A stretch of 64,000 nt of DNA, from NCBI GenBank assembly GCA_014377455.1, contig JACMPO010000046.1, forward strand, positions 1 to 64,000, given 5' to 3'. This document shows, in pieces, positions 10,393 to 52,700 of the stretch (position 1 is its first letter; each line of letters opens with the position of its first letter). Under the pieces are notes generated by a model that was given only the letters and a program-made list of their open reading frames with translations, was not told the DNA's origin and searched no databases. This DNA comes from Flavobacterium sp. (GTDB lineage: Bacteria; Bacteroidota; Bacteroidia; Flavobacteriales; Flavobacteriaceae). The position numbers and the translations under genes are program-made.

Positions 10393-12122
10393 TTATAATT
10401 CTAAATCGAACATTTTTTTAAATAGCTCTAAATTTGGATTTATCTCGTTAAGTCGGTTGTATCGATCTTGAGGTGTAAAAGCAACTTTACTCTTTATAGT
10501 TTCGTTTACAACAACCTCAATACTAATGTCATGATTGTGCAAATGACTTCTTAAATAAGCAAGAAGTTCGCTTTTTTCGCGGTCGAAATCTATCTTAGAA
10601 CCTTCGTTTGGGAGTTCATAAATTATATTGAATCCATCTAATTTTGGATCACTTATTCGCAACAACGATTCCATAATCATGTATCCTTTATCGTTTAAAC
10701 GTTGCGCATATTTGTACCAAAAAGTCAACATTTCGTTTTCGGTGAATGTTTCGGTAGGTAATTTTTCTTCTACTTTTACAATTCCTTTTTGAGATTCCAG
10801 CAATGCTTTTTTGGCTCGAATACTTGCCATAGAAAACGCAGAAACACCAGCTGAATCCTGTGGAATCAGTAAAGTTGAATGAATAGGAGTTACAATTTCT
10901 GTGTCGGTTTTGATTTCAACATTTTCTGAAATTTGTTTTACAACATCACCTTTTGGTTCTTCAACTCTAGTAGTTTCAACTTTAGCAGTTTGAGTTTCAA
11001 CGATCGAATACGAAGTGTTTTTAAAATGTGTAGATGGAATTATGAAATCAACTTTTTTTTTTCACCATCAAAGGTGATTGAAGCTAACTGCATCAAGCAA
11101 AGTTCTATAAGAAGTCGTTGATTTTGAGATAATTTGTATTTTAAATCACAATCGTTTGCTATTTCAATACCTTTCAAAAGAAATTCTTGATTGCATTTCT
11201 GAGATTGCATTTCATACATTTTTTGAGCTTGTTCACCAACTTCTAATAATGAAAGTGTTGCAGGATTTTTCGCCACTAACAAATCCCTAAAATGACTTGC
11301 AAGACCAGCTATAAAATGATGACTATCAAAACCTTTAGATAAAATTTCATTGAAAGAAATTAAAAGGTCGGGAATTTTATTTTCTAAAATTAAATCAGTG
11401 ATGTTGATATAGGTTTCATAATCTAAAACATTCAAGTTTTCAGTAACTGCTTGACGTGTTAAATTGTTCCCACAATATGAAACTACTCTATCAAAAATTG
11501 AAAGCGCATCTCGCATCGCTCCATCTGCTTTTTGCGCAATAATATGCAGCGCATCATCTTCAAAAATAACACCTTGACTTTGTGCAACTTCCGCTAAATG
11601 TTCTTTAGCATCTTTAACCGTAATTCGCTTAAAATCGAATATTTGACAACGAGATAAAATGGTCGGAATTATTTTGTGCTTTTCAGTTGTGGCTAAGATA
11701 AAAATCGCATGTTTTGGCGGTTCTTCTAGTGTTTTTAAAAATGCATTAAACGCCGAAGAAGATAACATGTGAACTTCATCAATAATATAAACTTTATATT
11801 GTCCTGTTTGTGGTGGAATTCGAACTTGATCTATTAAACTTCTAATATCATCTACCGAATTATTAGATGCAGCATCGAGTTCAAAAACATTAAATGCAAA
11901 ATCCTCTAGTGGATCATCGTATCCAGGTTGATTTATTTTTCGAGCTAAAATGCGAGCGCAAGTTGTTTTTCCAACTCCTCTTGGACCAGTAAAAAGTAAT
12001 GCTGAAGCTAAATGATTAGTTTCTATTGCATTGAGTAAAGTATTTGTAATAGCCTGTTGCCCAACGACATCTTTAAATGTTTGTGGTCGGTATTTTCGAG
12101 CTGATACTACAAATTGTTCCAT
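10393..12122 (-). CDS. dnaX: DNA polymerase III subunit gamma/tau, reading frame split at an A10 run
   Basis: Clamp-loader ATPase. The 5' part reads MEQFVVSARKYRPQTF with Walker A GPRGVGKTT (46-54), DEVHML (Walker B) and the SRC sensor motif; domains I-III end near residue 355. The four-cysteine zinc module between Walker A and domain II of many DnaX proteins is absent. After GAT GGT G there is an A10 run (forward 11053-11062) and frame 0 stops four codons later at 11040, giving a 360-aa gamma-like protein. One base of -1 shift (or one extra A in the mRNA) opens an uninterrupted frame to 10393, giving 576 aa with a tau-like C-terminal domain. Either programmed slippage or an assembly/real frameshift explains this; the position right after domain III favours slippage. 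Confidence 0.9.
11053..11062 (-). promoter_or_regulatory. Candidate slippery A10 site in dnaX
   Basis: Ten consecutive A residues on the coding strand, between GATGGTG and GTTGATTTC. Frame 0 reads K-K-K-L-I-S-stop; the -1 frame reads on through more than 200 sense codons. Runs of nine or more A are known to cause RNA-polymerase slippage in Thermus dnaX, and E. coli dnaX uses A AAA AAG for ribosomal -1 shifting. I see no convincing downstream stimulatory hairpin here, so transcriptional slippage would be the more likely mechanism. Confidence 0.6.
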
Positions 12123-51671: not shown

Positions 51672-52700
51672 ATGGTTTCAATTTCAGTAATTATTCCTGT
51701 TTTTAACTCTGATAAACATCTTGCAATCTGCATAGAATCATTATTGTGTCAAACATTTACTGACTTTGAACTAATTTTTATAAATGATGGCTCTACAGAT
51801 TCTAGCCAGAATATTATACAATCATACCAAAAAAATAATTCCAAAATACATCTTCTGAATCAAGAAAATAAAGGCGTTAGTGTTGCTAGAAATAATGGAA
51901 TTGAATTTTCAAAAGGTACTTTTTTATGTTTTGTAGATTCTGACGACTATGTTGAAAAAGACTTTTTAAAGATTTTATATAATGAAATAACTGAGAATAA
52001 CTGCGAAATTATTACTTCAAATTTTATTTCAGAACAGGATGGAATTATAAAAAATAACAAACCGTTGTTTGAAGTTAATAAACTCTTTTTTAAAGAAGAA
52101 ATTAAATCGAAAATCATTCCTTTTTTTATCGAAAATGATGCAATGAATACAGCTTGTAATAAAATATATTCTAGCAAATTGATAAAAAATAATTCAATTC
52201 AATTTCCCGCAGGAGTTTCAATGGGTGAAGATGGCTTATTTAATATTCAGGCATTTAATAAGGCAAATGCAGTATTTTTTATAGATTATAATGGTTATTA
52301 TTACCGAGAAGTTGCTAACAGTGCTACAAGAAATTCTGTTTCTAAAGACTATTTTAAAAGCGCAATTGAATCTTATTTTTTAGACGTAAAAGAAAAATAT
52401 GAAATAGATATTGATTCTAAAAATTTTCAAAAATTAAAATCTATAAGGCTTATAGATATGGTTTGTTCGCTTATCCACATCTATTTAAGACCGAATCCAG
52501 AAACTAGTTTTTCCTTTAAGTATAAATATGTAAAAAAAATGATTTATGATAAAAATGTACAATTTTCAATCAAAAATTATTGGAATGAAACCATTAAAAA
52601 TAAAACTAAATACCAACAATTCATTTTGAACTGCATAAGACACAAGTCAATTTTTTTTTTAGTATTGGCAACTAACTATAGCAATTTAAGAAGCAAATAA
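51672..52700 (+). CDS. Family 2 glycosyltransferase
   Basis: A 342-aa GT-A enzyme: VSISVIIPVFNSDKHLAICIESLL, CQTFTDFELIFINDGSTD, VSVARNNGI and CFVDSDDYVE (DxD motif for metal/nucleotide). The C-terminal half (about 200 residues) contains no membrane segment. It adds one sugar to the growing lipid-linked repeat unit; the donor is unknown. It follows rfbB by 51 bases. Confidence 0.9.
   Translation: MVSISVIIPVFNSDKHLAICIESLLCQTFTDFELIFINDGSTDSSQNIIQSYQKNNSKIHLLNQENKGVSVARNNGIEFSKGTFLCFVDSDDYVEKDFLKILYNEITENNCEIITSNFISEQDGIIKNNKPLFEVNKLFFKEEIKSKIIPFFIENDAMNTACNKIYSSKLIKNNSIQFPAGVSMGEDGLFNIQAFNKANAVFFIDYNGYYYREVANSATRNSVSKDYFKSAIESYFLDVKEKYEIDIDSKNFQKLKSIRLIDMVCSLIHIYLRPNPETSFSFKYKYVKKMIYDKNVQFSIKNYWNETIKNKTKYQQFILNCIRHKSIFFLVLATNYSNLRSK

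Follow-up and report, generated by a model that had tools for sequence, protein, structure and literature searches.

A ten-adenine run in Bacteroidota dnaX as a candidate transcriptional slippage site for gamma and tau

In the 64,000-nucleotide stretch of Flavobacterium sp. DNA analysed here (the window; its genome, G000, is a 3.29-Mb draft assembly of 269 contigs), the dnaX gene is divided between two reading frames that meet at a run of ten A's. This arrangement raises the question of how the short (gamma) and long (tau) DnaX proteins could both be obtained from such a gene, and whether the break belongs to the gene or to its sequence record. The features of the site, all on the minus strand, are as follows.

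11040..12122, minus strand: dnaX frame-0 open reading frame (ORF), gamma-like, 360 residues, with AAA+ domains I-II and domain III (Pfam and NCBIfam PRK14971)
11062..11077, minus strand: hairpin abutting the run, UCACC-UUUGAU-GGUGA, −7.0 kcal/mol, whose last pair takes in the first A of the run
11053..11062, minus strand: A10 run, candidate slippery site; an A8-A13 run lies at the same place in 312 of 331 distinct sampled loci
11048..11050, minus strand: TGA closing the third frame (A9 or A12 transcripts); its T also serves as the last base of the first tau codon
11040..11042, minus strand: TAA closing frame 0 (A10 transcript, gamma); it overlaps the tau Ile codon ATA at 11041-11043
10393..11061, minus strand: shifted frame of 222 codons, tau-specific C-terminal part (NCBIfam PRK14971 positions 408-613)

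On the coding strand the run reads from 11062 to 11053, contains exactly ten A's, and is crossed by the codons GGT GAA AAA AAA AAG TTG ATT TCA TAA. The two non-tau frames stop after four codons and after one codon, and tau is split over two ORFs with no single open frame of its own; when both frames are joined by re-reading one base, which equals one extra A, a tau of 576 residues ending at the stop at 10393 is obtained. The original prediction had given the A10 run at this place, a 360-residue frame-0 gamma and a 576-residue tau, and all of these were reproduced exactly on recomputation from the sequence. It had also held that the −1 frame stays open to a typical DnaX C-terminal end and that gamma is the unshifted and tau the shifted product; the 222-codon frame with its profile match bears out the former, and the ORFs of the window confirm the latter.

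The NCBIfam DnaX profile PRK14971 (614 positions) matched ORF 1 over profile positions 1-369 (E 5.9e-184) with 613 bits, which lies below its cut-off of 685 bits, a threshold set for the whole protein. The downstream frame matched positions 408-613 (E 9.3e-20, 71 bits), and since this is the C-terminal third of the profile, the tail is a real DnaX C-terminus. Pfam detected DNA_pol3_delta2 and DNAX_ATPase_lid in the frame-0 product, with gamma3 slightly below its cut-off, and found no match in the tau-specific tail; an Rfam search of 10800-11300 returned no match either.

For comparison, 331 distinct Bacteroidota dnaX loci were assembled, after removal of 10 duplicates from 341. The genus search covered 249 genomes (245 with matches; 30 + 120 loci taken among the matches listed), the phylum search 392 genomes (388 with matches; 30 + 80 loci taken among the matches listed), and the search of named records contributed the best 80 of at least 593 matches. 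Distant Bacteroidota are under-sampled, because all sets were ranked by likeness to the window gene; the phylum group holds six loci, three of them with the run. All locus counts below cover related genomes and hence are not independent events. The N-terminal part is at least 87% identical to that of the window in 166 of the 168 same-genus loci, and the named Flavobacterium records among the best 80 of at least 593 match the window dnaX at 91-93%.

The break could in principle be an artefact of sequencing or assembly, or a frameshift mutation acquired recently by the window genome, given that the assembly is a draft in 269 contigs and that homopolymers are error-prone. However, when the run was compared in other Flavobacterium genomes, as had been proposed, the same split was found in 154 of the 168 distinct same-genus loci, including some from single-contig genomes, and 273 of the 312 runs are exactly A10. 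A miscounted run, with A11 or A8 in the genome, is excluded by this recurrence; error is ruled out by the genus-wide conservation of the split, and we regard this whole explanation as extremely improbable.

The run is kept after domain III well beyond the genus. A run of A8-A13 is present in 312 of the 331 loci, and one of A9 or more in 311. Outside the Flavobacteriaceae the flanks are unrelated and the run is still kept, even between GC-rich flanks (L228, L233 and L235). Its start falls in phase 1 in 239 of the 312 loci, in phase 2 in 46 and in phase 0 in 27, and the base that follows is G in 223, C in 55 and T in 34. What does change is the frame: tau is in frame with the upstream part in 112 run-bearing loci, needs +1 in 194 and +2 in six (200 shifted in all). 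Within the genus the corresponding numbers are 13 in frame, 154 needing +1 and one needing +2, and in an order-level group (f2, L313-L320), which keeps a run of A10-A12, all eight loci are split. The reversal of roles claimed for the window thus stands for this gene and for 154 of the 168 genus loci, but not as a conserved trait, the unshifted product flipping among relatives; the A run, rather than the reversal, is what relatives keep.

On a quick FastTree tree of the N-terminal proteins (331 rows), the basis of all our counts of frame change, tau changes between split and intact at least 25 times, and the presence of the run changes nine times. Homopolymer errors could add some of these flips, although scoring by the 3′ flank alone still gives many (42 over three states, four of them in the genus). 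Nineteen loci carry no run of eight or more A's, and 16 of these are uninterrupted to 567-671 residues; L321-L323, L186, L201, L202, L208 and others, from some Bacteroidales and class-level lineages, are run-less with one straight tau frame. The three exceptions are L229, a Bacteroidales metagenome-assembled genome whose dnaX frame ends at 383 residues with no A run of eight or more near the site; L212, where the frame runs off the contig; and L197, which has no run and a frame ending at 441. In L197 the gene is cut by an adapter-like sequence inside the deposited contig, about 200-300 bases past the end of the N-terminal match, which we take to resemble a Nextera adapter, and its early stop is discounted because this sequence lies at the contig end.

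We put the probability at about 85% that this is a cassette for programmed transcriptional slippage, in which mRNAs of mixed A number would give both gamma and tau. This reading is built on what is visible in the sequences (the run, the stops, the codon constraint, the hairpin potential and the frame flips), and from these we infer slippage itself, its rate and the production of both proteins. RNA polymerase would stutter on A10 and yield dnaX mRNAs with a varying number of A's. In modelled transcripts, A10, A9 and A12 give gamma-like proteins of 360, 357 and 358 residues, and A11, A8 and A14 give tau of 576, 575 and 577 residues; a stuttering polymerase would accordingly be expected to deliver products in just these two size classes, 357-360 and 575-577, with the stops in both non-tau frames clipping everything that is not tau to gamma. 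Relatives could then switch which product is in frame, tau or gamma, yet keep the run, because a mixed output would make the genomic frame nearly irrelevant.

The stops are far closer to the run than the rest of the gene would suggest. Both non-tau frames stop within five codons after the run in 260 of the 312 loci and within nine codons in 297, versus 7.5-14% and 18-34%, respectively, at in-gene control positions, depending on the group. By group, both stops lie within five codons in 167/168 genus loci, 49/70 named records, 13/20 other Flavobacteriaceae, 30/43 class-level loci, 1/3 of the phylum group and 0/8 of group f2, where the farther stop comes at eight or nine codons. In the genus, the Ile codon that holds the frame-0 TAA is ATA in all 167 loci with the motif (one of the 168 is without it), as compared with 15.7% ATA among the other Ile codons of dnaX and 63% at the next Ile column. 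At base three of the first tau codon, where the third-frame TGA begins, T stands in 166 of 168 genus loci; its share of 0.994 is the highest of 105 four-fold columns (median 0.31). The ten columns with the most invariant codon, among 362 conserved degenerate ones, include seven around the hairpin, the run and the stop (residues 349, 352-356 and 361); the other three are residues 285, 210 and 74. In the genus loci with tau in frame, the TAA derived from ATA serves the +2/−1 frame in 12 of 13, the remaining one (L121) being without the motif.

It might be argued that the run and the codon bias simply reflect an EKKK protein sequence and a preference for AT-rich codons, with no regulation and with tau re-initiated or unneeded. 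Outside the site, AAA does account for 86% of the Lys codons in genus dnaX (5783/6693), and A10 runs also occur within a few other genes of the window genome. This account is nevertheless very unlikely in our estimation: the run persists between unrelated and even GC-rich flanks outside the family, ATA is fixed at the site and uncommon elsewhere, and in the remainder of dnaX 526 kb of coding sequence contain 50 runs of A8-A9 and not a single run of ten or more. Runs of exactly A10 number 35 in the whole 3.29-Mb window genome, and the recurrence of a run at this one place of dnaX is beyond chance.

Programmed −1 ribosomal frameshifting at A_AAA_AAG, in the style of E. coli dnaX with tau as the shifted product, is a more serious competitor, yet we consider it improbable. 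In E. coli, gamma is made as the shifted product by a −1 ribosomal frameshift with a downstream stem-loop, and tRNA-Lys(UUU) is the only tRNA-Lys. The window gene shares with it the same two predicted products and the in-frame heptamer (codons AAA AAA AAG), which 162 of the 168 genus loci also have; among the 154 that need +1 for tau, 153 have it. Only the UUU anticodon was found for tRNA-Lys in the 30 tRNA loci examined (of 34). Some −1 ribosomal shifting is therefore possible, as the heptamer is in frame and tRNA-Lys(UUU) alone was found. However, the roles are reversed here, gamma being frame 0, and no stem follows the run in the genus: over 55 nt, 50 sampled loci average −4.6 versus −7.8 kcal/mol for a control of upstream coding sequence unmatched in base composition, which removes an E. 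coli-like downstream stem as a candidate. The same comparison gave a slightly stronger fold in the class-level sample (43 loci, −11.0 versus −9.4) and an about equal one in the named sample (−8.7 to −8.8 versus −8.3). A Shine-Dalgarno (SD)-like GGAG before the run was likewise rejected as a ribosomal stimulator, the window having GGTG; in the group that includes Flavobacterium johnsoniae, use of SD sequences is rare according to PMC8710568.

Further points speak against the ribosomal route. The phase of the run and the base after it vary among loci, the heptamer is in frame in only 12 of the 45 split loci outside the genus (33 are without it), six loci need the opposite shift, and a hairpin in the RNA immediately before the slip would be expected to sit in the ribosome's path. 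The third-frame stop is nearly fixed, although −1 shifting never reaches that frame. Transcriptional slippage should fit better than a −1 ribosomal shift because the third-frame stop is kept too, and slippage visits all frames.

On its 5′ side the run is abutted by a hairpin in all 168 genus loci, where the consensus stem CUCUAUCA-loop-UGAUGGAG ends at the run. The window genome has partly lost this consensus stem, and UCACC-UUUGAU-GGUGA replaces it there. Hairpins were scored as the best of several lengths, with the 3′ arm at most 2 nt from the end and the first one or two A's allowed, and controls were treated alike; with 40 controls, the best 5% means that at most 2/40 are as stable. By these rules the window hairpin (−7.0 kcal/mol) is more stable than 40 of 40 in-gene control positions, but 7% of 400 synonymous variants are equally stable and it is not exceptional by that control. 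Across the genus the signal is much clearer: the best abutting hairpin averages −9.65 kcal/mol versus −1.55 for controls, and it is among the best 5% of in-gene controls in 168 of 168 loci. In 40 sampled genus loci, synonymous variants average −3.57 versus the −9.67 observed; variants as stable as the observed hairpin make up 1.3% on average, and in 21 of the 40 none of 60 reached it. When folding was scanned by position in 40 genus loci, a sharp peak appeared at the run; in the 113 loci that lack the Flavobacteriaceae motif the peak was smaller.

Pair covariation in the stem is modest, two of five measures being not unusual. Counting used 45 of 54 distinct Flavobacteriaceae-like 22-mers, and its result is tilted towards the stem because the nine omitted 22-mers lacked a stem at that place or differed in register or loop. 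Paired cells amount to 83.3% (0/500 shuffles as high), the covariation score is 0.189 versus 0.154 shuffled (0/500 as high) and at most 0.148 when slid, and cells with double changes number 7 versus 2.6 (2/500 as high). The three pairs with a double change (101/500) and the ten further pair types (97/500) are the unremarkable measures. Outside the Flavobacteriaceae the hairpin is patchy. Beyond the genus it falls in the best 5% for 28 of 41 loci at 72% identity or more and for 27 of 103 below 72%. The 113 motif-less loci yield 29 by the in-gene control and 16 by the synonymous control (mean −4.0 versus −3.1), and group f2 0/8 (2/8 in the best 10%). Clear hairpins of unrelated sequence occur in L228, L213, L196 and L348. 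In the Flavobacteriaceae, slippage is probably raised or tuned by the hairpin formed in the nascent RNA just before the run. Should this hold, dnaX would to our knowledge be the first cellular gene in which a nascent hairpin drives slippage.

How does this site relate to known systems? In Thermus thermophilus dnaX, slippage on A9 produces mixed mRNA run lengths that give both products (PMC5009743, PMC1088944). The window's A10 is likewise a homopolymer A/T run of at least nine inside a gene, and both genes have the A run after the gamma part with stops in both other frames; unlike the window, where gamma is in frame, Thermus has tau in frame, an arrangement seen in 112 of the 312 run-bearing Bacteroidota loci, the other 200 being arranged otherwise. 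In the Roseiflexus insertion sequence, a nascent stem-loop stimulates slippage, and stem dependence was shown there (PMC5009743). Both have an RNA stem-loop adjoining the slippery motif on its 5′ side (168/168 in the best 5% for the genus, weak by the synonymous control in the window). The Roseiflexus case differs in being a U5C5 motif in a transposase gene, where one base is deleted, as opposed to A10 in a housekeeping gene with insertions or deletions expected, and for Bacteroidota dnaX a dependence on the stem is putative.

The closest precedent is that of Antonov et al. (2013), who presented 17 two-ORF dnaX genes from 12 genera as a separate structural type, nine of them with A10 and tau obtained by recoding, probably transcriptional realignment (PMC3711429). 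A 2016 review takes these genes up and notes, naming dnaX, that a single nucleotide can swap the two roles when efficiency is near 50% (PMC5009743). In the window, two adjacent ORFs are joined by −1 with poly-A at the junction, and the gene belongs to the 2013 type; the shared features are the pair of ORFs, the −1 offset in the DNA, the A10 and a tau that needs recoding. The central claim of the original prediction, a reversed A10 dnaX, was therefore already known, since two-ORF A10 dnaX genes had been described in 2013. The difference is that the two-ORF form appears here as one state of a phylum-wide site with a flipping frame, and the 2013 type would seem to be one of the forms taken by a frame-agnostic slippage cassette. 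The section of PMC3711429 on two-ORF dnaX mentions neither a third-frame stop constraint nor a 5′ hairpin, and its main text brings up stem-loops, hairpins or secondary structure solely in connection with the E. coli-type signal, apart from one reference. For phylum-wide frame flipping or a 5′ hairpin at dnaX, we found no report in a literature search of titles, abstracts and a few open-access papers; within that scope, neither the phylum-wide frame-agnostic pattern nor the hairpin was found in print. We give even odds to the broader proposal that a Bacteroidota-wide frame-agnostic cassette sets the tau:gamma ratio at transcription, with the genomic frame of this essential gene drifting freely and, in the Flavobacteriaceae, a terminator-like hairpin driving slippage ahead of the A10 and the stops in both other frames.

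If true, selection would act on the distribution of transcripts and not on one frame, and the genomic frame of a replication gene would be about neutral. The series of dnaX loci would offer natural material for testing hairpin-driven RNA polymerase slippage. Such a cassette would also suggest that gamma alongside tau matters in Bacteroidota; the need for gamma beside tau has long been debated in E. coli. Annotation pipelines may be predicted to cut the dnaX of most Flavobacterium genomes or flag it as broken.

Other exact A10 runs lie within open frames of the window genome at L268:767-2422, L275:186-1466, L295:547-2712 and L289:154-768; three of these frames encode a sulfatase/EptA-like protein, a glycosyltransferase and a DUF349 protein, and the remaining one has no Pfam match. 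These four would be expected to slip as well. At 52650-52661 of the window (L285), a 352-codon open frame has ten T's on its coding strand, 16 codons short of its end, and slippage at this T run could yield alternative C-termini.
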